A stretch of DNA of 58,054 nt, taken from assembly GCA_947589025.1 (NCBI GenBank), contig CANQAY010000008.1, positions 1 through 58,054 on the forward strand, in the 5' to 3' direction. Position 1 is the first letter of the stretch. Each line of letters starts with the position of its first letter. The DNA comes from an uncultured Clostridia bacterium (GTDB lineage Bacteria > Bacillota > Clostridia > Christensenellales > UBA1242). The position numbers were made by a program, and so were the translations under genes. Below, in pieces: positions 16,267 through 32,490 of this stretch. The notes below the pieces were generated by a model that worked only from the letters and a program-made list of their open reading frames with translations, was not told where the DNA came from and made no database searches.

Positions 16267-16473
16267 ATTTCCTCCACACATTGAACAATTTGTATAATTA
16301 TAAGTAAAAGGGCAATAAAAAGTCAAATGTTTTGGCTTAAAACATGCCTAAAAAGGCAAAACACGGCACAAAAATGCAAAAAAAATTTAAAATTTTAATA
16401 TAAAAAGCAATTTTTTATTATTTTATTTGCAATTTTTTTAAAAAAATATTAATATTATGGCAAGGAGTTGAAA

Positions 16474-17235
16474 ATGACCAAAGTAATTTCAGTGGCAAAT
16501 CAAAAGGGCGGCGTTGGCAAAACCACAACTTGTGTTAACTTGGCCAGCTATTTGGCAAATTGCGGCAAAAAGGTGCTTTTAATTGATATGGACCCACAAG
16601 GAAACGCATGCGCCAGCCTTGGTGTAGAGATAGATAAGAATAAAGAATCGGTTTACGAAGTGTTGCTGGGTGAGGCAAATTTAAGTGAGGCAATTTACCC
16701 TTCTGTGCAAGAAAATTTATTTGTTGTGCCTTCTACTGTGGACTTGGCTGGAGCGGAAGTAGATTTGGTTTATATGGATAGGCGCGAATATGTTATGAAA
16801 GAGGCGCTGGCAAATTATAAAAAGGATTATGACTATATTTTTATAGACTGTCCGCCTTCATTGGGCCTATTAACCGTTAATGCCTTAACGGCAACCGACA
16901 CAGTGTTAATTCCTATTCAATGTGAATATTTTGCCTTGGTTGGTTTAGGACAACTTATGAACACGGTTAGGTTAATTAAAAAACATTTAAACCCAAATGT
17001 TGAAATAGAAGGTGTGTTGTTAACAATGAAAGATAATCGCAGCAATTTGGTTGCTCAGGTGTCGGAGGAAATAAAAAAATATTTTGGTGCAAAGGTTTAT
17101 GATACATATATTCCACGAAATATCCGTTTGGCAGAGAGCCCAAGCCACGGCAAACCTATTTTGATGTACGATAGTAAAAGCAAAGGGGCTTTGGCTTATA
17201 AATCGTTATGTGATGAGTTTTTAAAGAAACAATAA
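16474..17235 (+). CDS. parA: Chromosome partitioning ATPase ParA/Soj
   Basis: A MinD/ParA-family ATPase of about 253 residues that drives segregation of the origin together with ParB. The deviant Walker A KGGVGKTT lies at about 10-17, DMDPQGNA follows, and the FIDCPPSLGLL Walker B/switch segment is near 122. An IPRNIRLAESPSHG stretch near the C-terminus is typical of chromosomal Soj proteins. I prefer the ATG at 16474 (AAGGAG six bases upstream) over the TTG at 16468. parB follows after 133 bases that contain two parS-like palindromes. Confidence 0.96.
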   Translation: MTKVISVANQKGGVGKTTTCVNLASYLANCGKKVLLIDMDPQGNACASLGVEIDKNKESVYEVLLGEANLSEAIYPSVQENLFVVPSTVDLAGAEVDLVYMDRREYVMKEALANYKKDYDYIFIDCPPSLGLLTVNALTATDTVLIPIQCEYFALVGLGQLMNTVRLIKKHLNPNVEIEGVLLTMKDNRSNLVAQVSEEIKKYFGAKVYDTYIPRNIRLAESPSHGKPILMYDSKSKGALAYKSLCDEFLKKQ

Positions 17236-17236
17236 G

Positions 17237-17252
17237 TGTTCCACATGGAACA
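17237..17252. promoter_or_regulatory. parS-like palindrome, doubling as a terminator hairpin
   Basis: TGTTCCACATGGAACA resembles the bacterial parS consensus TGTTTCACGTGAAACA, with changed inner bases. It lies one base after the parA stop. The surrounding arms extend to AAGTGTTCCA/TGGAACACTT, followed by T7, so the same site can act as an intrinsic terminator in RNA. Confidence 0.75.
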
Positions 17253-17341: not shown

Positions 17342-17357
17342 TGTTCCACATGGAACA
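17342..17357. promoter_or_regulatory. Second parS-like palindrome in front of parB
   Basis: An identical 16-base TGTTCCACATGGAACA. It lies immediately upstream of the AAAGGAGG ribosome-binding site of parB, so ParB binding here could repress its own gene. Confidence 0.8.
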
Positions 17358-17368
17358 AAGGAGGAATT

Positions 17369-18247
17369 ATGAAACCCGGATTGGGCAGAGGGCTAGATAG
17401 CCTATTAAAATCGTATGATGAGGAGATAGAACCTAAAACAAAAACAAGAGAGGCAAAACCTGCTTCGGATAATGAAATTACGGCAATTCCGTTATCTAAA
17501 ATTTACACAAACCCAAATCAGCCAAGAAAGTCGTTTGACCAAGCTGCATTAAACGAGTTGGCGGAAAGTATTAAGTTGCATGGTTTAATTCAGCCAATTA
17601 TTGTTAACGAAACGGCCGACGGCTACATGATTATTGCCGGCGAAAGGCGATATAGGGCCTGCAAACTTGCTGGGCTTAAAGAAGTTAATGCTGTGGTTAA
17701 AAAATACAGCAATAAACAGGTGGCAGAAATTGCCTTAATTGAAAACTTGCAACGTGAAGATTTAAACCCTATAGAAATGTCTAAGGGAATTAAAAGATTG
17801 ATGGACGAATATGGCTTAACACAAGAAAAGGTGGCAGAACGTTTGGGTAAATCTAGGTCCGCCGTTGCCAATAGCCTAAGAATTTTAAGCTTGTATCCTG
17901 AGGTTATAGATTTAATAGAAAAAGGCAAAGTTTCGTTCGGGCATGCCAAGGTGCTGGTTGCAGTAACCGACTACGCAACACAAGTTTTGCTTGCAAAAAA
18001 GATTGCTAAAGACAAACTTACCGTAAGAGATTTAGAGCGGGAAGTTGAACAAATTTTAGGCAACAAGAAAAAGAAAAAAGCCAAAGCTGCCCCTTCAGCA
18101 GAGTTAAAAGATTTTGTAAATCAACTTCAAAAAAAGCTTAAAACAAAAGTTAATGTAATTGGCAATGAAAAGAAAGGAAGAATTTACATAGACTATTACA
18201 ATCAAGACGATTTGGATAGAATTTATGAAATTATTTTAAAAAAATAA
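17369..18247 (+). CDS. parB: Chromosome partitioning protein ParB/Spo0J
   Basis: A 292-residue DNA-binding CTPase that loads at parS and spreads. The short N-terminal box PGLGRGLDSLL is the ParA-interacting motif. The ParB/Srx domain (about 35-125) has NPNQPRKSF, ELAESI and the GERRYRA CTP-binding motif near 90. ENLQREDLNP and a helix-turn-helix (about 130-180, LTQEKVAERLGKSR) follow. The C-terminal part dimerises. AAAGGAGG precedes the ATG, and two parS-like sites lie between parA and parB. A terminator follows. Confidence 0.97.
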   Translation: MKPGLGRGLDSLLKSYDEEIEPKTKTREAKPASDNEITAIPLSKIYTNPNQPRKSFDQAALNELAESIKLHGLIQPIIVNETADGYMIIAGERRYRACKLAGLKEVNAVVKKYSNKQVAEIALIENLQREDLNPIEMSKGIKRLMDEYGLTQEKVAERLGKSRSAVANSLRILSLYPEVIDLIEKGKVSFGHAKVLVAVTDYATQVLLAKKIAKDKLTVRDLEREVEQILGNKKKKKAKAAPSAELKDFVNQLQKKLKTKVNVIGNEKKGRIYIDYYNQDDLDRIYEIILKK

Positions 18248-18250
18248 AAT

Positions 18251-18276
18251 AAAAACGGGCAAAACCCGTTTTTTAT
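18251..18276. terminator. Bidirectional terminator after parB and nrnA
   Basis: AAAAACGGG CAAAA CCCGTTTTTT is an intrinsic terminator in both directions between the convergent parB and DHH phosphoesterase genes. Confidence 0.85.
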
Positions 18277-19232
18277 TTGCCCGCTTTTAAAATTAATTTA
18301 AATTGTTTGAAAACTTCAGCTTCAATTTCTGTTAAAGTTTTATTTGCTAAATAGGCGGCTGCCCCGGCATGTCCGCCTCCGCCCATGCTTTTGGCAAAAG
18401 CGGATACGTCAAACCCCTTTTTTGCCCGCATGCTAACATAAAATTGGCCGTTTTGTGGGCGAATAAAACACATCAGTTTGTTGTTTTGTATGGCAGCCAT
18501 TCGGTTAGAGACCCCAATGTAATCCATTTCACTAACGTTAAGTTTTTTAGCTTCTGCCTTAGTTATATGGGTAATTAAAATTTGATTATTTTCGCTGGCC
18601 TTTATGTTGTTAATTGCCGCAGCCAAGACCATCATGTTGCTTAACGAATGAGTGTTGAAATATTGGTTATATGTATCTTCAATGTCAACACAATCGATGC
18701 AGTCACCCGCAACATTATATGTTCTTTTGTTAACCGCCCCAACCGAAAAGTTGTTTGTATCGGTAATTATGCCGGAATAAATTTTAACTTTACTTTCGGC
18801 TGTTGGGGTATAGTTAAAGGCCTTCATAATAGAATATATAATTTCACAACACGAGCTAACAATCTCCACAATATTAATGTTGGCTTTTATTTGATTGGTG
18901 TTGTGATGGTCTATAACACAGGTCAGTTTTGCCTTATCAAACAGCGGCTTAAATTTGCCAAGGCGCTCTAAATTTGGGCAATCTAAAACTATTGCGCCAT
19001 CATATTTTTTAGGCACGACGTTAATTTTTAATTTACCTAAAAGAGATAAATAATTGCTGGGCAGAGTTTCATATTCTGCAAATAAATCTATATGCTTTAC
19101 ATTAAAATGGTTTGTTAAAAACTCTTGCATAACATAAAGGCTGCACAATGCATCCACATCTGGATTAACATGGGCAATTAGGCAAACCGAATTTAAATTT
19201 TTAAACTTTTCTAACTTTTTATAACTTTTCAT
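18273..19232 (-). CDS. nrnA: DHH/DHHA1 phosphoesterase (NrnA-like oligoribonuclease/pAp phosphatase)
   Basis: A 319-residue Mn-dependent phosphoesterase likely to degrade nanoRNA and/or pAp. The DHH motifs occur in order: HVNPDVDA near 20, VLDCPN, the signature DHHNTN near 110 and TDTNNF near 155. The C-terminal DHHA1 domain ends with GGGGHAGAA, the substrate-binding loop. A perfect TATAAT (19239-19244 on the minus strand) lies exactly six bases before the ATG and there is no SD, so the mRNA is probably leaderless. The gene points away from the DnaA-box cluster. Confidence 0.9.
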   Translation of the reverse strand: MKSYKKLEKFKNLNSVCLIAHVNPDVDALCSLYVMQEFLTNHFNVKHIDLFAEYETLPSNYLSLLGKLKINVVPKKYDGAIVLDCPNLERLGKFKPLFDKAKLTCVIDHHNTNQIKANINIVEIVSSCCEIIYSIMKAFNYTPTAESKVKIYSGIITDTNNFSVGAVNKRTYNVAGDCIDCVDIEDTYNQYFNTHSLSNMMVLAAAINNIKASENNQILITHITKAEAKKLNVSEMDYIGVSNRMAAIQNNKLMCFIRPQNGQFYVSMRAKKGFDVSAFAKSMGGGGHAGAAAYLANKTLTEIEAEVFKQFKLILKAGK

Positions 19233-19249
19233 ACAAGCATTATAGCATA

Positions 19250-19492
19250 AAAATTTTCCAACTTATCCACTTTTGAACAATTTTTGAGCGGTTTTTTTCA
19301 AAAAATTGGCAAGTTATCCACAATTTGTGGAAAAATATGTGGATAACTTGTGGAAATCGTGTGGAAAAGACGGCATTTTTGTGGATAAACCATAATTTGA
19401 CACATTTGTGTGAAACAAACGCACATAAAATAAGGTTTAACAAAAGTTTTAATAAAAAATCATATATAAAAAATAATTATCATAATTTAAAT
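19250..19492. other. Candidate chromosomal replication origin (DnaA-box cluster plus AT-rich element)
   Basis: Three perfect TTATCCACA boxes occur at 19314-19322 (+), 19338-19346 (-) and 19380-19388 (-). One-mismatch boxes lie at 19263-19271, 19326-19334 and 19360-19368, and a weaker one at 19349-19357. The first two perfect boxes form a 13-base inverted repeat, CAAGTTATCCACA/TGTGGATAACTTG. A very AT-rich stretch (about 19430-19490), suitable for unwinding, follows. The region lies between divergent genes and within 3 kb of parA-parB and parS-like sites. dnaA itself is not in the window. Confidence 0.72.
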
Positions 19493-20182
19493 ATGCTAAA
19501 AAAACTAAAAAAATATAAACTATTAGCAATATTTTTTGTTGTGTTGCTGCTTTTAAGCGTGGCTTTTAACGGAATTGTTGTTGCCTCGGCAAATAAATAT
19601 AACGGGGTGACAATTGTTTTGGATGCCGGGCACGGCGGGCGAGATGGCGGAAGTGTTGGTGCGAATGGAACAATTGAAAAGGAATTGAACTTAAGTTACA
19701 CACTTATGTTAAAAGAAAAACTTGTTAAGGCGGGATATCGGGTTGAGCTTACAAGGAAAAATGATGATGGGCTATATTCTAACCTTGCAAAAAACAAAAA
19801 AATTAGCGATATGAATGCCCGATTTGAAATAATTAAAAAAACCAACCCAAATTTGGTTATTAGCATACACATGAATAGTTTTGCGGATAAAACTGCCTAT
19901 GGGGCCAACACATATTATAGGGTTAACGACGAGGCAAGCAAAAATGTGGCAAACATAATTCAAGCATCACTAAACAATTTTTGCGGGGCAAAAACAAAAT
20001 TTGCCTTAGTTGGCGATTATTACATTTTAAATTGCAGCTATTACACATCGGTTTTAATTGAATGCGGCTTTATATCTAACCCGGAGGAAGAACAAAAATT
20101 AAATTCGCAAAACTATAAACAAAATTTTACAGATGCAATAGCCAAGGCAATTTTTATTTATTTTGGCAAAAGAACAGTATAA
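19493..20182 (+). CDS. N-acetylmuramoyl-L-alanine amidase (Amidase_3, CwlD-like)
   Basis: A secreted or membrane-tethered zinc amidase of 229 residues that cleaves the bond between MurNAc and the stem peptide. A signal anchor covers about 8-30. The Amidase_3 domain begins with VLDAGHGGRDGG (first zinc histidine). It continues with the glutamate in TIEKELNL, the second histidine in ISIHMNS, and the catalytic glutamate in LIECGFISN. I start at the ATG at 19493: upstream codons would run through the DnaA-box region, and a -10-like CATAAT lies six bases before this ATG. It could act in wall remodelling or daughter-cell separation. Confidence 0.9.
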   Translation: MLKKLKKYKLLAIFFVVLLLLSVAFNGIVVASANKYNGVTIVLDAGHGGRDGGSVGANGTIEKELNLSYTLMLKEKLVKAGYRVELTRKNDDGLYSNLAKNKKISDMNARFEIIKKTNPNLVISIHMNSFADKTAYGANTYYRVNDEASKNVANIIQASLNNFCGAKTKFALVGDYYILNCSYYTSVLIECGFISNPEEEQKLNSQNYKQNFTDAIAKAIFIYFGKRTV

Positions 20183-21113: not shown

Positions 21114-21140
21114 AAAACTCTTCATAACGAAGAGTTTTAT
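21113..21140. terminator. Bidirectional terminator
   Basis: The hairpin AAAACTCTTC/GAAGAGTTTT with loop ATAAC separates convergent genes and overlaps the 3' end of the giant MBG protein gene. Confidence 0.85.
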
Positions 21141-24100
21141 TTTTGCTTTTGCTTTTTGTGCTTTATTATAATTTTTAACCCGCACAGCACAACGGCCGCA
21201 CCAATTACGTAAAGCGAAATTGTAGATAAAAAGTTTATCCAACTTTCGTCTTCAACGGTAACGTAAAATTCGCCCAAATTGGATGCTGTTACATAAAGTT
21301 GCCCGTTTTGTTTTTTGCTATCCAACAGCGTTAGCGAGCCATCCGCCGCGCGCTGATAAACATAGATGTTGCTTTTTTTATAAACATTTTCTGGCAGGTT
21401 TAGTTTAATTGTGTAAGTGCTAATTGCGTTTACAAATTCGTTATCATTTTTTAGCCAAATGTTATATTTAAGCACCAAATTGTGGTTTTTAATTTTAACA
21501 TTTTCTCTAACATTTTCTTGCGTAACATTAAGCAAATAATTGCCTTTAATAACAGGGTCTAACGCCGAAACCGAAACTGAATTATCTGCAATTTCGGCAA
21601 GCGTTATGTTGGCGTAAAGGGTTTTTGGCAAAATTAAATTGTAATTGTGTGCATTGTTGCCAACAATTGAAATGTTGTAAATGTTAACAGGAATGTTTTG
21701 CCCAACCGCAGCAGATTCAAACTGCGCACAATTGTTTTTATCATATTGCAAATAAACGTCGTCTATAACGCCAGAAATGTAAGGATTTTTTAAATATGCC
21801 CGGGTGGTGCCGTCGTAAATTTTATCGTAAATTGATGTTATCATGTTAACATCTTTTTGCAAAATTTGCAGTGTTGCCGGCAGCAGCGTTATGTTGTAAT
21901 TTGAATTGTAAACGCCTTCAATTAATTTGTAACTGCCAACATTTTCGCCCGGCTCTCGCTTAACGGCGCCATATAAAATGTCGTTATTAATAAGCTTGCC
22001 GCTTGTTATTGTGTAGTTAAACGATGGGTCATCTTGCCCGTAAATTTTGGTGTAACTTGAGCTGGTGGTTTTTATTGTTAAGTTAAGCGGTAAAATGGTT
22101 ACCGTTCCGGCAATAAATTTAATGTTATAATTTCTGCCCAAATTAAGCGTGCTAATAATTTCATATTCGCCAACCGTGTTGCCTTTGCGCTTATATAGCC
22201 CGCCCTCTAGCGTGTGGCCGCTTAATATTGAGCCGGACACAATAACATATTCTAGCTCGGGGTCGGCCTCGCCGTAATTGATTGTGTAACTTTGCGCTTT
22301 AATAACAATTTCTCGTGGCAAAATTGTAAAATACCATTCGTTAAAAATTATGTTGTAATTTTTGTTTGCCAAGGTGCAATAAATTTTATATTTGCCCGTC
22401 TCTTCAATTGGGTGGGTGTCCCTTTCTCTAAACAAATTTCCGCTTAAAACATCGCCATTAACAAGTGTGCCGTTAAGCGTGTAGGCAATGTTGGTTTCCG
22501 CCTCGCCATAAAATTTGGATAGTGTGGTTGGAATAACTTCAATTTGCCTTTTTAAAATTTTAAAAGTGTTGCTTTCAAATTGAACAATATAGTTATCGTT
22601 AATTTTTATGCTGCCAATTAAAATTTCATAATCGTTGGCATCTTCGCCCGGCTGCCGTGCCAGGCTGCCCGTTATTTGGTCGTTAAAAGCAAGGCCGTTT
22701 AAACTAATTTCATAATTTAATTCGGGGTCAGCTTCGCCATAAAACTTTTGCATGCCTTGGGCGGAAATTGTTATGTTGCGTTTAATAATTTCAAACGTGC
22801 CGGCGCTAAAAGTTATGTTATAATTTTTGCCAAGGTTAAAGCTGCCAATGTTAATAATGTAGCTGTCAACATTTTCGCCCTCTTGCCTTAAAAGTGTGCC
22901 CGAAGCAATGTTTTCTAAATGGTCATTATTTTTTAAAAAGCCTGAGGTTATGCTTACGCTGTAAGAAGGGTCGGCATCGCCATAAATTTTAATTTTGTCA
23001 TCTGCCCGCAGCGAGATGTTGCACGGCGTTATTGTTAAATATGCCTCAACAAATTCAATTGAATAGCGCTCGTCAAAAGTTGTTTCGCAAATAAGTTTAT
23101 AGCTGCCAACATCCTCGCCAAACTCACGCATTATGTTAACGCTAAGGCGCTGGCCGGCAATGTCGTTAACAACGGAATAGTTAAACACGGGGTCGTCATC
23201 ACCATAAACTTTTGTGGTGGCAAAACTTGTTACCACAACCGGGCGTTTTAAAATTAAAAAGTTGGAATTTTGTGTGTTAACAAATGTGTAATTTATGTTG
23301 GTTGAAAGGGTGGTTAAATTGTAAGCATAAACGCCAACATCCTCGCCAATTTCACGCGTTATTTCGCCATCAATAACATTAGTGGTGGTGTCGTTAAAGC
23401 AAAACGCATCTTCAATTTCGTAAGCTATAGCGGGGTTATCATCCCCAAAAAATTTAGATTGCGTTTTAACAAAAACATTTATAGGGCGCGGCAAAATTTC
23501 AAAATAATTTTCGGCAAGCACAAGGCTATAATTTGGGTTGCCGTTAATTATGTTTAAATTATATGCATATTGCCCAACAACCTCACCCGCATTGCGCTGC
23601 AATTCAATGTTTATAACATCATCTAGCACAAGGTTGTTAATAGAATAATCAATTTCGGGCTCACTGTCGCCATAAAATTTTTGGGTGTTGGCTATAAACA
23701 CGGTGGCAATGCGCTTTTCTATTTTTATTTGATTATTTATTACATTAAATTCAAAATAATAGTTCAACGGATTGCTGCAAATAATTTGCTTGGTTAAAAT
23801 TGTTACATTTGCATTGCCTACATTTGCGCTGCTTAACATGGGTTTTAAGAGCAGTTCAAAATTTTCATTTTTAATGTTGTTTTTAAAGTTGGCGTTAAAG
23901 TTAACATCGGTTGTTCCGTCATAAGTTTTGTTTAAAAATTCTATTTCAACATCAATTTTGCGCTGCTTAATTTCAAGCACACTTGCGTTAAATTCAATTA
24001 TGTAATTTTCGTTATAAAGGCTGCCTTTATTTAATTTGTAACTGCCAATATCTTCACCCTCTTCACGCATTATTTTGCCAGATAAGGTGTCGTTATTAAC

Positions 24101-26296
24101 AAGGTTAAGTGTGGCATAAGAAAATAGCGGATCGGCATCGCCATAAAATTTGGTTTTCTTAAACGCGGTTACATACGCCGTGCGCGGCAAAATGGTGCAG
24201 CCGGCGGATATAAAGTTTGTTATTGCATAGTTAGGGTTTGCCAAATTGCCAAGCTGAATTTTGTGCGTGCCCACATTTGTGTTGCCAATTGTTAGGCTGC
24301 CAAAAAGTTTATCGTCATTAACAAGGTTGGCGGAATATTTAATGTCAATTTCCTCGCCATAAACAAAGCTGCATTCAAGCGCGGTAACGGTAATTTCTTT
24401 TGGCTTAATTGTGCCGCGCAAAGTTTGGGTGTAAGCTTTTAAAATGTAGTTATCTTTGTTTTCGCCCAAAAGGGTGGTGCTTAAAATAACAACTTCTTTA
24501 TTTGTGCCGGCGGTGTTGCTAACAAATTGGCCAGTTAGTTCAACATAAACATCTTCGTTGTTAAAAATGTTTGTTAAATTGGCTGTTATTGTGGCAGAAG
24601 TGTTGCCGTCATAAACCTTATCTAACACCGCCACATTTGTTAGTGACAATGTGCGCTGCTTAATTTCAAAATATGCATCGCCGCAAGTTAATGTAAAGTT
24701 ATAATTTGTGTTGTTTTCTATAAGGGTGCCAAGGGTTATGTTATATTTGCCAAGTTGCTCGCCCAAAGGTGTGCCCGCGCCCTCACGGCCTAAATTGCCA
24801 AGCAAACTTTCGTTAGCCAAAACGCCTTGCGCGGTGTATTTAATAATTGGGTCTCCATTGCCATATTCTTTTTGCGTTTGGCTTGGCACAATTTCAACAT
24901 CTCGCTTTTTAATTTCCCCAACAATTGATGGCAAAATTTGAGATTTTAAATTGTAAATTTTTGCATGCGCGCCAGTTAAAGTTAATGTTTCAAAACTTGT
25001 TAACACCGTTTTGTTGCTGCCGGCTTTGGCGTTGGCAAAATTATATGTTATTCCGCCCAAGCCAAGCTCGTGCCCCGGCTCTATGCCGTCAAACGCAACC
25101 GAAACGGTGCCGGCGTCTATTATAGTGGTGCCGTCGTAAATTTTGGTTGGTTTGCTAAAACTTTTAACCGTAACATCTTTAATTAGTTCGGCATAAATTT
25201 CCTGCCCAACGGCGGCGTTGCCAACCAATCGGCGCGAGGTGGTTTGGCGTTTGCCATCCACCCACCAAGCCACAAATTTAAAGCCCGCATTTGGCGTTAT
25301 GGTTAACGAATATCGCTCGCCAATATTGTAAACGCCCTCGCCAACAATTGTGGCAGGGGAAGCAAAATCGGTGGTTACAGTTAGGTTAATTTTGTTGGCA
25401 GAATTTATTGTTATTGTTGCATAGTTGGAAGAATAAATTTTGTTTGAAGAATAAGAATTTTTATTTGCAAACGCCCTAAATTTAATAACCCCATCGGGCG
25501 CATCTTTGGCAATGCTTATGTTGGTGCCAACAACGGTAACATATTTTTGGGCATAGGCAACAGAAGAAGAGTCAAATTCAAAATTTATTTCGTGGTTAAT
25601 TTTAGAAAAACTCATAAAGTTGCCCGAATCTCCAGTTAGCTTTGTAACCGTGTTGTAGGCATTTATTTTAACCATTTGCCCGGGGGTTGCCTGAATGTTT
25701 TTGTCTTCCAAAGTAAGCGAATCTATTTCGGTGTAAAGGTGAATTGTGGGCTCATCCATAACAAAGCCGTTGGCAGAAGAAGTTGTTGCGTTAAAGCTAA
25801 ATTTTACGTTGCCCAAATTTTCTATTTTAACAAGTGGGGTAAAAATTTCGACATTTTCATCCGTGCTTGAAACCGACTCGCTAGCCTGCTCGGTTGCAAT
25901 GGTTAGGCTTACAACCGCGCCATTGTTTGTGCTTACCTTTGCCGAAGCGGAGGCGTAAAGTATGCCCGCTTCAATAAATGGGTGCATATCCGAAGTTGGG
26001 GTAAACTCACAATAGCCCGAGCTAACGCCTTTGACTTTTGGCACAATGGAATAATATTTGCCGCCGCAATCTTTGGTGGTGGCGTTAACAAGGGTGGAGC
26101 TGTTGTTGCCCGCATCGTAAAAGAAGTGCGTGGTGCTGGTGCCGGTTAGCCCGGTTAAAATAATTTTGTTGCCCGAAACACTTAAATTAGAAGCCGCACT
26201 TATAATTAAACTGTTAGAAAATTGGTGCGGCAAAAATATGCAAGCGCAAACTAGCACAAACAAAATAATTAAAATTTTTGGGTAGCGTTTTTGCAT
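21137..26296 (-). CDS. Giant MBG/YDG-repeat surface protein (1,719 residues)
   Basis: A secreted, membrane-anchored fibrous protein. A signal peptide covers about 1-36. Residues about 40-370 are beta-rich and end with an InlB-type B repeat (AGFKFVAWWVDGK). From about 385 to 1500 there are some eleven MBG domains, each opening with a KxYGDxDP-like motif and spaced roughly 75-90 residues. About four YDG domains (KIYDGTT, KVYDGNT) are mixed in. A C-terminal helix (about 1690-1710) followed by KHKKQKQK forms a stop-transfer anchor; there is no LPXTG. AAAGGA precedes the ATG, and the gene follows the 2,059-residue protein by 14 bases. Likely roles are adhesin or surface stalk. Confidence 0.9.
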   Translation of the reverse strand: MQKRYPKILIILFVLVCACIFLPHQFSNSLIISAASNLSVSGNKIILTGLTGTSTTHFFYDAGNNSSTLVNATTKDCGGKYYSIVPKVKGVSSGYCEFTPTSDMHPFIEAGILYASASAKVSTNNGAVVSLTIATEQASESVSSTDENVEIFTPLVKIENLGNVKFSFNATTSSANGFVMDEPTIHLYTEIDSLTLEDKNIQATPGQMVKINAYNTVTKLTGDSGNFMSFSKINHEINFEFDSSSVAYAQKYVTVVGTNISIAKDAPDGVIKFRAFANKNSYSSNKIYSSNYATITINSANKINLTVTTDFASPATIVGEGVYNIGERYSLTITPNAGFKFVAWWVDGKRQTTSRRLVGNAAVGQEIYAELIKDVTVKSFSKPTKIYDGTTIIDAGTVSVAFDGIEPGHELGLGGITYNFANAKAGSNKTVLTSFETLTLTGAHAKIYNLKSQILPSIVGEIKKRDVEIVPSQTQKEYGNGDPIIKYTAQGVLANESLLGNLGREGAGTPLGEQLGKYNITLGTLIENNTNYNFTLTCGDAYFEIKQRTLSLTNVAVLDKVYDGNTSATITANLTNIFNNEDVYVELTGQFVSNTAGTNKEVVILSTTLLGENKDNYILKAYTQTLRGTIKPKEITVTALECSFVYGEEIDIKYSANLVNDDKLFGSLTIGNTNVGTHKIQLGNLANPNYAITNFISAGCTILPRTAYVTAFKKTKFYGDADPLFSYATLNLVNNDTLSGKIMREEGEDIGSYKLNKGSLYNENYIIEFNASVLEIKQRKIDVEIEFLNKTYDGTTDVNFNANFKNNIKNENFELLLKPMLSSANVGNANVTILTKQIICSNPLNYYFEFNVINNQIKIEKRIATVFIANTQKFYGDSEPEIDYSINNLVLDDVINIELQRNAGEVVGQYAYNLNIINGNPNYSLVLAENYFEILPRPINVFVKTQSKFFGDDNPAIAYEIEDAFCFNDTTTNVIDGEITREIGEDVGVYAYNLTTLSTNINYTFVNTQNSNFLILKRPVVVTSFATTKVYGDDDPVFNYSVVNDIAGQRLSVNIMREFGEDVGSYKLICETTFDERYSIEFVEAYLTITPCNISLRADDKIKIYGDADPSYSVSITSGFLKNNDHLENIASGTLLRQEGENVDSYIINIGSFNLGKNYNITFSAGTFEIIKRNITISAQGMQKFYGEADPELNYEISLNGLAFNDQITGSLARQPGEDANDYEILIGSIKINDNYIVQFESNTFKILKRQIEVIPTTLSKFYGEAETNIAYTLNGTLVNGDVLSGNLFRERDTHPIEETGKYKIYCTLANKNYNIIFNEWYFTILPREIVIKAQSYTINYGEADPELEYVIVSGSILSGHTLEGGLYKRKGNTVGEYEIISTLNLGRNYNIKFIAGTVTILPLNLTIKTTSSSYTKIYGQDDPSFNYTITSGKLINNDILYGAVKREPGENVGSYKLIEGVYNSNYNITLLPATLQILQKDVNMITSIYDKIYDGTTRAYLKNPYISGVIDDVYLQYDKNNCAQFESAAVGQNIPVNIYNISIVGNNAHNYNLILPKTLYANITLAEIADNSVSVSALDPVIKGNYLLNVTQENVRENVKIKNHNLVLKYNIWLKNDNEFVNAISTYTIKLNLPENVYKKSNIYVYQRAADGSLTLLDSKKQNGQLYVTASNLGEFYVTVEDESWINFLSTISLYVIGAAVVLCGLKIIIKHKKQKQK

Positions 26297-26310
26297 ATTT
26301 TTCCTTTAAA

Positions 26311-29300
26311 TTAAATTCGGCATGGTTTTTTAATTTTTGCAAGCAGTTGGGTGTTATCGGTGTAATTATCGTTAGGGTGAATAAACATTTGGCTGTTAGG
26401 TATGGTTAAAATAGATAATTTTATTGGCACGGCAACACCCAAGAAAAGTGAATCTTCAATTGTAACATATTGATACCTTGTGCAATTACCTGTAAGCCCA
26501 GAAATATCCAGCTTGCCGGCGCCGTTAATTGTCATTATGTTTGGCAGCTCGGCAAACAGATTAACCACGCCAAAGTTGTAATAAATTTCGTTGGTGGCAC
26601 TATCTTTATAAGCATAATTTGTGCCTTTATTAAGCGCAATTTTTTCTAATTGCTCAAAAATTTGGTTGCTGGCAAAGGCAAGCCCGTGCTCTCTTAACAG
26701 GCGCTCAAGGTCTAGCCCGCGCTCCAACTGTTTGGTGGTGGACCAGTTGTAAAACCAAACATCGCCGTTTAATTTTAGCACATTGTCTGGCCCCGGCTGT
26801 GCAACATTTGGCCAAAATAAAATGCCAATAAAGCTGCCAGCGAAAATGCTATCGGTTACCGTAACGGTGCAGTTTAAATTGTTGTATCGTGCAATTTTAA
26901 TGCCGGCAACCAAGTTGTTTTGCAAAATGCAGCCTTCAATTTGGGCGGTTGCGCAAACAATTTGTATGCCCGTTTCGGCGTATTCTATAATGCAGTTATA
27001 AACCAGCACATTGCTGCAATAATTTATAGAAAGCACAATGCCGCTGTTTTGCAACTCTAATTTATCTTTAATGTTTTTGCCACGCAAAACAACGTTATCT
27101 AACACCACATTGTTTTTGTTAACATAATAATGATATCCGGTTGTGCTAACGCTAGAGTGATCTAAAATAAACGCGTTGCCATAAAGGTTATAGGCAAAAT
27201 TGACGGTTGGCATATCGCTGCCTATTGAAATGCTGTTCTGCAACACCATGGCGGCGTAGTTGTCAGTTCTATTTGCATTGGTGTTTGTTAGACTTAAAGC
27301 TGCCAGTTTAAATTGCGCATAATTTTCAACGTTAATGCCTTCAACCACATTAAATTGATAGCTTGCTGAAGCACCAACCAAACCGTCTGGCACATCTTGT
27401 TTAACCGTTATTGTAACTTTGCCCGGCTTTAAAAAGGTTACAATGCCCAATTTTTTATCCACCGTGGCAACATCTTCGTTGTTGGAATACCACACAAGCA
27501 AATCTTTAGGCGAATTAGCAGGCGTTAGCGTAACACCCATTGTGTAGCTGTTTATTAATTGGTTTGCGCTGTTGTAAAAGCTGTTGCCAAACAGCCTATA
27601 TTGACCCTGCCCGCCTTTTTCTTTTTGCTTGTTAAGGTCTAGCGCAATTTCAGAAATGCGCGTGTAAATGTTTATTGTTTTTGTTGCGGTTATGCTAACA
27701 TCTTTGCCCGGAAGAATAGCGGTGGCGGTTATTGTTAACTGCCCAGCCGATTTTGCAATTAGGTGATAAAATTGCCCTTTATTTTCAATTGTTGCCAAAG
27801 CTTTGTTGTCAATGTCTAGCGTATATTCAAATTCTGCTGCGTCTAGCGGAACTGGGGTTATGGTTAAATCTATTGCGTCACCCACAAACAGGCTATCCCT
27901 CGTTTCGTTAAACACAATTTGTTTAAGCTCTTTGGTGTAGGTTATGCTAACAATCTTTTTAACTTCGGGTTTTTCTACAACATAAATTGTAATGTCACAA
28001 CTGCCAAGGCGGCTAAATTCAACATCCCCATTTTGGCTAACCGTGGCAACGCTTGTGTTGTTAGATTTAAAGCCCAGCAGGGTTTGGCTGGCATCAGTTT
28101 CCATAACATGTGCCAAAATTGTGTAATATGGCTCGGAAATATACACTTCGTCCGGGCCGGAAAGCTCAATTCGGTCGGCATCACGCGTAACAATTAAACA
28201 CAAGTTATCTTCAAGTTTATATCCATTTGCCCAAAGCGAAAATGTGTAACTTCCGCCATTTAAAGCGTAAAGCACGCCGCCAGCAAAATTTGCAACTTGT
28301 TTGTTGGCATCGTTGCGCGTTTCGTTAGCGTCCGAAATAGTGAATGTTATGTTGTTATTATCGCTTGGCAAATAACTTTTTAGGCTAAACGCCATGTTTT
28401 GCCCCGCCTTTAAATTAATTATGTTGTTTTCAAAATTAGTTTTATCCAGTTCGGCTTCAAACAGGCTGTTGCCAACAAAATAGAAAGTGTAACTGTTGGT
28501 TTTTTGCATGTTGCCATAAAAACAGGTAAAGCTAATAGAAACCTCGCTGCCTTCCTTTAAAAAGCTAATTTTGTTGCCATCAATTTGGGCAAGGCTTGGG
28601 TTGGAAATAAGGTAACTATAGCTAGAAACTTCGGCATCAATTGGCTCATAAACCAAATTAAATATAAGTTCGTTTTTGCTGGTTATAAATGTGTTTTTGT
28701 TTTGATAATTATCTATTTTTGTTTCAAAATTTATGCTAAATGCGGCAAGCGGGCTAAACACTTTTATGTTGCAATCGGTATAAATCTCTTGCCCGTAATA
28801 ATCATATGCATAAACCCTAACAACCGCCGTGCCTGCGCACAAAGCCACAATTTGGCCATCGCTTTTTAGCGTTATTGGGCTAGATTGCCCGTCATACGAC
28901 TGCTGGCTTATTATTTTAAAATTAATTTCGTTGTGAGTTGCCTCTTGCGGATATTTATCCACATAAAGCCAAACCGTTTCACCTTTGTTTATGGTTAAAT
29001 TGTTGTTGGTTAAAACAAGCTTTGACAAATAACCCATTGTGCTTGTTACATTAACTTGTTTTTCTATGTTGCTGCCGTCGGTTGTTCTTACAAACACTTT
29101 AACGCTGCCCGCCTTTAAAAAGGTTATAACATTGTTGTTAATTGTGGCAATGTCGGTTTTTTCTAGCACATATTCAAGCACTTTGTTTGTTGCCTCGTTT
29201 GGCACAACCTCGGCATTTAGTGTGAAGCTGCTGCTGGCGGTTAAAATGTCGGCATCAATTTTAACATCTTTAACACGGTTGATGCACAAAATTTCAACCT

Positions 29301-32300
29301 CTTTAATTATGTTGTTAGAAAGCAGCATAACAAGTTTAGCCTCGCCGCTATCCACCGCGGTTATGGTTCGGGTGTTGGCGTTAACTTCAATAACTTTTTT
29401 GCCCGAAACATTAACAACTTCTTTAATTAAAATGCGGGAGTCAACCACATCGTGCGGCAACCAGCTTGAAACACCAATTGAAACGCTATCGCCAATATCC
29501 ATAACAATCATGTTGCCAACATTAAGTTGTGCGTCAAGCGCAACGCCGCCGGTGTATCTTAAATGGAAAACGGAAGTAAAGTTGCCGTCGTTAGATTTAA
29601 CTTCTAGCGCCACCACGCCCGCTTTAATAAAGCTAATTTTTTGGTTTACAATTGATGCAATTTTTTCTGTTTGGCCGTTGCTTGCAACCGATTGAATTAT
29701 TGAAACAGAAATTTCTTTATTTGTGGCATAGCGTGGGTAAATTTCAAAGTTTAAATCAACTGTATCCGCCCCAACAACATATTCGCCCGCGTAATAATCT
29801 ATGTTGCCGGCAGGGGTTATGTTTTCAACAAGCTGATTAACTGTTACATCTAGCGTGTAGCTTGTGTTTTGTGCCGTTATTGTAACTTGTGCCGTGCCGG
29901 AAGATATTGCACGGATGTAACGGTCATTTTCTATTTTAATAACTGCGCCGTTGGCAATTGATGGGTTAACATTGTTTATGTTTAGTTCAATTTGGCCGGA
30001 ATAATCAAACACCAATAAATCTCCAACATTTAGGCTAACCGAAGTTTGATTTAATGCGGCGTGAATTGTATCTTTTTCTATTTTTTCAATATAAAACGTT
30101 AGTTTAACATTTTCGTTGCCATCCGCCACCGCGGTTATGTTAACCATGCCGTTGGTTTTAAATGTTAGGGTAGAACCCTCTATGCTGGCAATGTCCGTTT
30201 CCTTAACAATATAATAAATGTTTTTGTTTGTTGTGTCGTATGGCAGCACTTCGCCAATTAAATTAACAACATTTGCACTAACTTGCGTGTTGGCTTGCAT
30301 AACGGTTATTTCTTCTGGCAGCCTAACCACGGTTATTGTAAAGTTTAACCTAACAAAGCTAGAAACATAAACCACAAGCGTTGCCGTTCCGCCCGCAACA
30401 CCGGTTACGCTGTTGCCGTTTACCTTAAGCACCTGCTTAGATGGGTTTGACGTTTTTTGATTTATTATTTGCATTGAAAGTTGTGACAAGTTTAAATATT
30501 GCGGAATTATTTTAGAAATTTGCACATTAAAACTTTCACCCACCATAATTTGCTCGGGCACGGCGCCAAGCGTGTTGTTATATTCGGCAGAAAGTTCGGC
30601 GTAAATTGCATTTGTGCCAACATAATATATTTCAACCTCGCTAGAAATTTTGCCAACCGTGGCAATAAGTTTTACATAGCCAACTTGGTTAAAAATTAAT
30701 TTGTTGTTATTAATAAATGCAATGTTGCTATCGTTAACCGACCATGTTATTTGCTTATCCGTGGCATCTAAAGGCAACACTAAGGCAGAAAATTCCACTT
30801 GCTTTTCAGGTGAAATGTATTGATTTTTGTAAAAATCTAAATTTAAATTTATGTTAATTTGCTCGGGCGCGCGGTTAACGGTAACAAGGCAATAATCTTT
30901 AACCACGCTGTTGTTAAATAGGGTAAAGCTAACTTCAACTTTTGCCTGCCCGCCAGCAATTGCGTGAATTCTGCCATCGGGCAAAACTTCTAGCACATTG
31001 TTGTTTTCAATGTTTAATGTTAGTGGGCGGATGGTGGCATTTGCCGGGGTTATGTTATAGCTTAGCGAGGCGGTGTCACCATAATTTAGCGTTAGCTGTT
31101 TATCTGCTAATTCAAATGAAGATGCCATGCCGGCGGTGTATAAAATTTGCACATCTTTAGTTACTGTGCCGTAATCTTCATTGGCGTAAATGGTAACGGT
31201 AACCGTGCAAGGCGTTTGCTCATTAAAGTTAACCAAGCCCGTTTCAGTTACTGTTGCGTTGCCCTGCTTTATGTGATAATAATAATTGTTGTTTGTAGAG
31301 CCCTCTGGCAAAGAGGTTGGCACAAGCTGAAAGCTGTTTTCCGCCGTTACGGCATCGTCAATTTCAATTGCGGTTGCCGGGCTCATAACATAAACATAAA
31401 CCTGTTTTTCAATTTCTTCATTTTTATAAGTTGTGGCGCGCAGCCTTATTATTGTGTTGCCACCCTTAACAGCGTGCAAATAGTTGGAACTATCCACATA
31501 TGCAACGTTTTCGTTATCCGAAACAACACTAACCATGCCGTATAAATTTTCGGGCAGGGTTTTAAATTCAAAATAAATTGGGGCAGAGTTAATTTGCATG
31601 GTTATGCGCGGGTTTTCTAAAACAATATCGTTAACATGCCCGTTGGTGTAAACACAATTAATTGTCTTTTTAAATTCGCCATCGTCGGTTATTAGCGTTA
31701 TGTTTGCCTCGCCGGGCTTGTTAAAGGTAATTTCGCCCCTATCGTCAATTTGGGCAATTTCTGGGTGGTCTATTTCAAAAAACACATTTGTAATTGTGGC
31801 ATCTGCCGGCTCAATAACATATTCAATGCGCGCTGTTTTGTTGGCAGTTACAATTTCAGTTTTTTCAATATTAAGCGAGGTTACTGGGTTAATAACGGAA
31901 AGGTCAATTGTTTCGGTTATGCCGTTATCCAGCGCCGTTGCTGTTATTGTAACATTGCCCACCTTTAAGCCGCGCACCAACCCGTTGCTATCCACCGTGG
32001 CAATTTGGTTGTTGCTTGAACTGTAGGTTACCTCTTTATTTACTGCCTCGTTTGGCACAACGGTGGTGGTTAGTTGTAAAGTTTTGTTAACATGCACTCG
32101 ATTCTTTTGTGGGGCAGAAATTTGCAAGCGGTGCACAACACTATCTCCAACATAAAAATAACAATGAGATTGATGGTTGCCCTCTTTGGTGGCGGCTGTT
32201 ATGTAGCCCGAGCCGATGCCAACAAATTCAACATGTCCGTTGGCGTCCACCACAGCGGTTTGCTCGGCGTTGCTGGACCAAATAACCTCTTTGTTGGTGG

Positions 32301-32490
32301 CAATTTCCGGGTAAATAATATAACTTAAATCTACACTATCGCCAACGCGGGCATCTATGTAAGTTTTGTTTAGCGTAATAGAGTCTACCGAAATAAAAAT
32401 ATCTCCAACCGTTACGGTGGCGGTTAGTTTAACAATAAATATGGCGAATATGGGAATGGCAAACACTAAAAAGAAGAAAAACTTTTTCAT
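26311..32490 (-). CDS. Giant Big_2-repeat surface protein with beta-helix tip (2,059 residues)
   Basis: A secreted protein with an N-terminal signal sequence (about 1-30). A long array of bacterial Ig-like Big_2 domains follows (roughly 30-1720, about seventeen, each with motifs such as PxxATNKEV and VSxxGxV). Residues about 1730-2000 form a right-handed parallel beta-helix (repeated short turns such as NNVVLDNVVLRG and YNCIIEYAETGIQI), of the kind that binds or cleaves polysaccharide. No C-terminal anchor or sorting signal is visible. Its start lies one base after the permease stop, and GAGGTG within the permease end serves as SD. It is therefore translationally coupled to the exporter. Confidence 0.9.
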   Translation of the reverse strand: MKKFFFFLVFAIPIFAIFIVKLTATVTVGDIFISVDSITLNKTYIDARVGDSVDLSYIIYPEIATNKEVIWSSNAEQTAVVDANGHVEFVGIGSGYITAATKEGNHQSHCYFYVGDSVVHRLQISAPQKNRVHVNKTLQLTTTVVPNEAVNKEVTYSSSNNQIATVDSNGLVRGLKVGNVTITATALDNGITETIDLSVINPVTSLNIEKTEIVTANKTARIEYVIEPADATITNVFFEIDHPEIAQIDDRGEITFNKPGEANITLITDDGEFKKTINCVYTNGHVNDIVLENPRITMQINSAPIYFEFKTLPENLYGMVSVVSDNENVAYVDSSNYLHAVKGGNTIIRLRATTYKNEEIEKQVYVYVMSPATAIEIDDAVTAENSFQLVPTSLPEGSTNNNYYYHIKQGNATVTETGLVNFNEQTPCTVTVTIYANEDYGTVTKDVQILYTAGMASSFELADKQLTLNYGDTASLSYNITPANATIRPLTLNIENNNVLEVLPDGRIHAIAGGQAKVEVSFTLFNNSVVKDYCLVTVNRAPEQININLNLDFYKNQYISPEKQVEFSALVLPLDATDKQITWSVNDSNIAFINNNKLIFNQVGYVKLIATVGKISSEVEIYYVGTNAIYAELSAEYNNTLGAVPEQIMVGESFNVQISKIIPQYLNLSQLSMQIINQKTSNPSKQVLKVNGNSVTGVAGGTATLVVYVSSFVRLNFTITVVRLPEEITVMQANTQVSANVVNLIGEVLPYDTTNKNIYYIVKETDIASIEGSTLTFKTNGMVNITAVADGNENVKLTFYIEKIEKDTIHAALNQTSVSLNVGDLLVFDYSGQIELNINNVNPSIANGAVIKIENDRYIRAISSGTAQVTITAQNTSYTLDVTVNQLVENITPAGNIDYYAGEYVVGADTVDLNFEIYPRYATNKEISVSIIQSVASNGQTEKIASIVNQKISFIKAGVVALEVKSNDGNFTSVFHLRYTGGVALDAQLNVGNMIVMDIGDSVSIGVSSWLPHDVVDSRILIKEVVNVSGKKVIEVNANTRTITAVDSGEAKLVMLLSNNIIKEVEILCINRVKDVKIDADILTASSSFTLNAEVVPNEATNKVLEYVLEKTDIATINNNVITFLKAGSVKVFVRTTDGSNIEKQVNVTSTMGYLSKLVLTNNNLTINKGETVWLYVDKYPQEATHNEINFKIISQQSYDGQSSPITLKSDGQIVALCAGTAVVRVYAYDYYGQEIYTDCNIKVFSPLAAFSINFETKIDNYQNKNTFITSKNELIFNLVYEPIDAEVSSYSYLISNPSLAQIDGNKISFLKEGSEVSISFTCFYGNMQKTNSYTFYFVGNSLFEAELDKTNFENNIINLKAGQNMAFSLKSYLPSDNNNITFTISDANETRNDANKQVANFAGGVLYALNGGSYTFSLWANGYKLEDNLCLIVTRDADRIELSGPDEVYISEPYYTILAHVMETDASQTLLGFKSNNTSVATVSQNGDVEFSRLGSCDITIYVVEKPEVKKIVSITYTKELKQIVFNETRDSLFVGDAIDLTITPVPLDAAEFEYTLDIDNKALATIENKGQFYHLIAKSAGQLTITATAILPGKDVSITATKTINIYTRISEIALDLNKQKEKGGQGQYRLFGNSFYNSANQLINSYTMGVTLTPANSPKDLLVWYSNNEDVATVDKKLGIVTFLKPGKVTITVKQDVPDGLVGASASYQFNVVEGINVENYAQFKLAALSLTNTNANRTDNYAAMVLQNSISIGSDMPTVNFAYNLYGNAFILDHSSVSTTGYHYYVNKNNVVLDNVVLRGKNIKDKLELQNSGIVLSINYCSNVLVYNCIIEYAETGIQIVCATAQIEGCILQNNLVAGIKIARYNNLNCTVTVTDSIFAGSFIGILFWPNVAQPGPDNVLKLNGDVWFYNWSTTKQLERGLDLERLLREHGLAFASNQIFEQLEKIALNKGTNYAYKDSATNEIYYNFGVVNLFAELPNIMTINGAGKLDISGLTGNCTRYQYVTIEDSLFLGVAVPIKLSILTIPNSQMFIHPNDNYTDNTQLLAKIKKPCRI

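Follow-up and report, generated by a model that had tools for sequence, protein, structure and literature searches.

The intergenic region between a DHH phosphoesterase gene and a divergent amidase gene carries an array of DnaA boxes that, with a probability of roughly one half, represents one of the two halves of a Firmicute bipartite origin, oriC1, which has parted from oriC2 and been retained near the origin as a DnaA-binding site that would set the timing of initiation. The window analyzed, 58,054 nucleotides in length, covers contig C8 of a 19-contig draft assembly from end to end. Six DnaA boxes lie within 126 bases of it, three perfect and three with a single mismatch (Table 1); the sequence-only reading had drawn attention to such a grouping, and the 13-base inverted repeat that it described between two of the boxes proved to be exact. 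In the core of the array, a single forward box precedes four reverse ones. A parA-parB pair with two parS-like sites was located close by, as had been noted, and mnmG, rpsF, and ssb are indeed present elsewhere in the window. In relatives, TGTTCCACGTGGAACA parS sites are found in the same parA-parB gap, usually two to five of them, and are concentrated there. The amidase is CwlD-like, yet scores under the cut-off of the CwlD model. Further along the window (21137-32490, minus strand), two giant proteins of 1719 and 2059 amino acids with MBG/YDG and Big_2 repeats are encoded; these are probably surface proteins, and no match to them was found in the contigs of 12 relatives.

Table 1. Positions of the array and of neighboring features in the window
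Feature	Position	Strand	Remark
parA	16468..17235	+	
parS-like site TGTTCCACATGGAACA	17237..17252		
Second parS-like site TGTTCCACATGGAACA	17342..17357		
parB	17369..18247	+	
DHH/DHHA1 phosphoesterase, NrnA-like	18273..19232	-	Divergent neighbor
One-mismatch box TTATCCACT	19263-19271	+	Outlier, outside the core common to relatives
Array core	19310..19388	+	Conserved in the genus
13-base inverted repeat, CAAGTTATCCACA / TGTGGATAACTTG	19310-19322 / 19338-19350		Exact
Perfect box TTATCCACA	19314-19322	+	
One-mismatch box TTTTCCACA	19326-19334	-	
Perfect box TTATCCACA	19338-19346	-	
One-mismatch box TTTTCCACA	19360-19368	-	
Perfect box TTATCCACA	19380-19388	-	
N-acetylmuramoyl-L-alanine amidase (Amidase_3)	19493..20182	+	Divergent neighbor

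A scan of the whole 962-kb draft genome identified the array as its strongest and densest DnaA-box cluster, a feature expected of a chromosomal origin. Chance clustering was ruled out with Markov genomes and random-placement trials: each of 20 Markov genomes held 4-14 perfect boxes, with two within 100 bases in none, and when the 52 perfect boxes observed were placed at random, three of them came to lie within 75 bases in 0.015% of trials. The box TTATCCACA is itself several-fold over-represented across the whole genome, beyond the array (52 occurrences vs. 8 for the reversed pattern).

The genus carrying the array, which is probably Candidatus Onthoplasma (Christensenellales), consists of tiny gut bacteria. 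The array is found directly upstream of the DHH gene in 26 of 30 genus loci; with the remaining four, it is close by in G033 and G032 and on another contig in G008 and G026. Box starts in the 26 loci are typically 12, 12, 11, 11, and 21 bases apart, and the aligned core reads GTTATCCACA-N3-TGTGGATAACTnTGTGGATAACTTGTGGA. Each of the 20 genomes having the strict tandem motif has it in one place only, while the present genome has a variant with one-mismatch boxes. The sequence, order, and spacing of the boxes have been kept although the DHH proteins of the relatives are only 33-53% identical to the one encoded here; a tree of these proteins placed G024 as the sister genome with modest support (92/86). 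An intact core is found in G008 next to a thymidylate kinase-like gene (tmk; named from sequence) on a 3.5-kb contig that contains neither the DHH nor the amidase gene, and at locus L255 the array likewise persists apart from its usual neighbors. Depending on the relative, the array is approximately 70 to 300 bases from the DHH start, and anywhere between tens of bases and more than 2 kb from the amidase gene. This survival away from the usual neighbors, coupled with the variable distances, suggests that the DNA itself is kept rather than the promoter of one gene. The AT-rich stretch following the boxes, earlier counted as an origin feature, fared less well: no conserved counterpart was found beside the array in relatives, and its candidacy as an unwinding element was rejected since its resemblance to the dnaA-dnaN element is absent from them.

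The identity of the motif emerged from a scan of the whole genome collection, which returned at least 118 stretches. The DHH/amidase type accounts for eighteen of the matches listed, and most if not all of these come from genus members; with the other 100 listed, dnaA lies within 2.5 kb in 71, and dnaN or rnpA in five more. Among the matches listed, dnaA was placed by direct search in 66 loci outside the genus; the array lies on its upstream side in 65 of these and shares its orientation in all 66, and hence the motif typically constitutes the rpmH-dnaA half (oriC1) of a bipartite origin. The array of the genus has the box motif, order, and orientation of oriC1, and in 11 of the 12 relatives' contigs it is found, as oriC1 is, to the dnaA/recF side of dnaN; it does not adjoin dnaA on the upstream side, the two being 9-38 kb apart in the 12 relatives. 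The other genera of the family have boxes in the gap between dnaA and dnaN, their DHH genes lack an array, and no match to the strict motif was found in those searched. No intermediate between an oriC1 beside dnaA and a detached array was seen in the family genera examined, and for this reason the motif could have arisen anew instead of descending from oriC1. Seven Elusimicrobia loci among the matches listed (L194, L198, L230, L247, L248, L249, and L253) have the same array motif with dnaA out of reach; they perhaps represent a further lineage whose array is detached, or one whose origin lies away from dnaA.

The sequence-only reading had also remarked that dnaA is not within 19 kb of the array. 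As the window is the entire contig C8, however, this means only that dnaA is not on this contig. No dnaA, dnaN, recF, rnpA, yidC, jag, or gidB was found anywhere in the assembly, and PF00308 matches on contigs C15 and C2 were rejected as DnaA, since they score only 28-31 bits and lack the C-terminal domain of DnaA. Of 33 other genus members, 30 have the DnaA C-terminal family, and in two relatives, G033 and G006, dnaN, recF, rnpA, yidC, jag, and gidB lie in the vicinity of dnaA. Given that the neighbors of dnaA are missing together with it, the simplest reading is that dnaA and dnaN have fallen into an assembly gap and were not lost. At the right end of contig C5 (104756-106683), lysS ends the contig; the order in G033 is lysS, jag, yidC, rnpA, dnaN, dnaA, and the missing origin region thus probably continues from there. 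An organism devoid of dnaA was ruled out with the joint absence of these seven origin-region genes and the position of lysS. The side of the array expected from synteny to face dnaA differs between relatives. The consensus of the Spo0A box, TGTCGAA, is found repeatedly in relatives' dnaA-dnaN gaps, and GTCGAA is present in many arrays; Spo0A is encoded in the genus, and here its gene is on contig C5 (101170-101478), approximately 5 kb from the assembly gap.

Replication in the relatives appears to start at dnaA-dnaN. With 12 relatives' contigs holding both sites, drawn from drafts and read in joined 20-kb stretches, third-codon GC skew was fitted together with gene orientation and a switch point. 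The summed log-likelihood deficit was 20 at dnaA-dnaN vs. 143 at the array. The dnaA-dnaN site was preferred in eight of the 12 contigs, by 4.5-30 log units; the array was preferred marginally in G002 and G031 (approximately 1.5 log units), and G014 and G021 gave little preference either way. The skew of the present genome is weak, and the placement of its origin is carried over from the relatives. A conserved block occupies the dnaA-dnaN gap of relatives, comprising boxes, TT[AG]TCCAC-wTTCCAC, a short spacer, and TAATAAAAAAATCACTATCAAAAA. This resembles the published layout for basal unwinding of a box, a spacer, and DnaA-trios, with three trios as the minimum (PMC8287927). A scan for a box, a spacer of up to 16 bases, and at least three trios with a middle A, a trio rule that is permissive in AT-rich DNA, detected this unwinding module in 14 of 21 dnaA-dnaN gaps, with 2.3 expected, and in none of 29 array regions. 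The minimum had been relaxed from four trios to three after an initial scan for at least four gave no match at any region, and a shuffle control was therefore added. DnaA-dependent opening at dnaA-dnaN has been demonstrated with C. difficile (PMC7561715).

With strand switch and module both residing at dnaA-dnaN in the relatives, the array is probably not the site of initiation. The proposal of a candidate oriC consequently stands as regards a genuine origin-type DnaA-box array, and is not supported as regards a working oriC; a skew switch lying elsewhere had been named beforehand as a finding that would refute it and was observed in relatives, while the other such finding, a larger box cluster beside dnaA, was not encountered, the dnaA-dnaN cluster of relatives having fewer perfect boxes than the array. 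Variation around dnaA-dnaN was also observed. At L039 (G022) and L041 (G027), the conserved element is absent and a strong box cluster lies beside dnaN instead. The dnaA and dnaN genes are divergent in most genus members and codirectional in G002 and G029, which points to an apparent inversion of dnaA inside the origin region. In several relatives, two perfect boxes form an inverted pair immediately beyond the dnaN 3' end (G006, C1:63047-63078; G033, C7:117422-117452; G029, C3:21648-21679); this pair may be a terminator or an additional DnaA site.

As a detached oriC1, the array is proposed to act apart from strand opening, which would occur at oriC2, the dnaA-dnaN intergenic region lying inside the assembly gap of this genome. 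The head-to-tail boxes are about one helical turn apart, and from this spacing the array would be expected to bind several DnaA molecules cooperatively. Since it is one strong site close to the origin, the array would be copied soon after initiation, and could then soak up or remodel DnaA and thereby help to set initiation timing. Control of DnaA of the Soj type could come in addition from the parAB-parS close by, but such a link would not be required given that parAB of G019 is approximately 16 kb from the array. With B. subtilis, removal of six box clusters outside the origin leads to early initiation, which is in keeping with a timing role for the array; single clusters matter little, which counts against it (PMC5295017). 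The usual position of the array between the DHH and amidase genes counts against it as well, since a promoter role would account for this too.

That latter role would make the array a DnaA-controlled divergent promoter region regulating both genes and linking cell-wall cutting or nucleotide turnover to replication. Its place between the two genes in most relatives is in keeping with this, but the distances to both vary, the array of G008 sits beside tmk with neither gene present, and the form is that of oriC1, all of which make control of the two genes a rather improbable explanation. The oriC1-type form and orientation would also suit an origin that has been split and still functions as such, as would the location of the array, which in 11 of the 12 contigs is to the dnaA side of oriC2. 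In this case the array would serve as oriC1, would be bridged by DnaA to oriC2 through a loop of 9-38 kb, and would be needed for efficient unwinding there. In C. difficile, unwinding in vitro requires both halves of the origin, which are presumed to be brought together by looping (PMC7561715). Known bipartite origins, however, are separated by about one gene, the distance and side of the array vary among relatives, and oriC2 has a complete module of its own; such a loop is hence considered unlikely. It is similarly doubtful that the halves, 9-38 kb apart throughout the genus, still cooperate more generally, either with the array bridged to dnaA-dnaN or by coupling through a ParAB-parS centromere.

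That the array is itself the working oriC of this organism must be judged very unlikely. It is the densest box cluster of the genome and has the oriC1-type motif, the switch falls marginally at the array in G002 and G031, and the weak skew of the present genome does not speak against it; the advantage of dnaA-dnaN in eight relatives' contigs, the conserved unwinding module there and none at the array, and the lack of a conserved AT-rich element beside the array nevertheless weigh heavily in the other direction. Finally, an array having the form but not the place of oriC1 might be a relic of it with no present function, but the retention of box sequence, order, and spacing across species with such diverged DHH proteins renders this the least credible of the explanations.

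A detached oriC1 bears on the question of why two clusters of DnaA boxes are maintained around dnaA in many bacteria. In a practical sense, origin finders that choose the densest DnaA-box cluster would go wrong in these genomes. Among known systems, datA and DARS1/DARS2 of E. coli are, like the array, single non-coding DnaA-box loci outside oriC, and they tune initiation; the likeness is one of kind and not a claim of homology, datA and DARS2 needing IHF and DARS2 also Fis (PMC5295017, PMC4585315). The clusters outside oriC of B. subtilis share with the array the presence of multiple DnaA boxes away from the unwinding site and without an unwinding module, but B. subtilis has six, weak singly, whereas the genus has one dense array of oriC1 form near the origin, known from sequence. 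Also close is oriC1 itself, the rpmH-dnaA intergenic region of C. difficile and B. subtilis, which matches the array in box motif, order, and orientation to the downstream gene, in being present as a single copy, and in having divergent genes on both sides. That oriC1 adjoins dnaA. The array of the genus, by contrast, is 9-38 kb from it in relatives and has the DHH and amidase genes for neighbors; with the two clusters naturally so far apart, the unwinding half and the box-array half can be tested singly.
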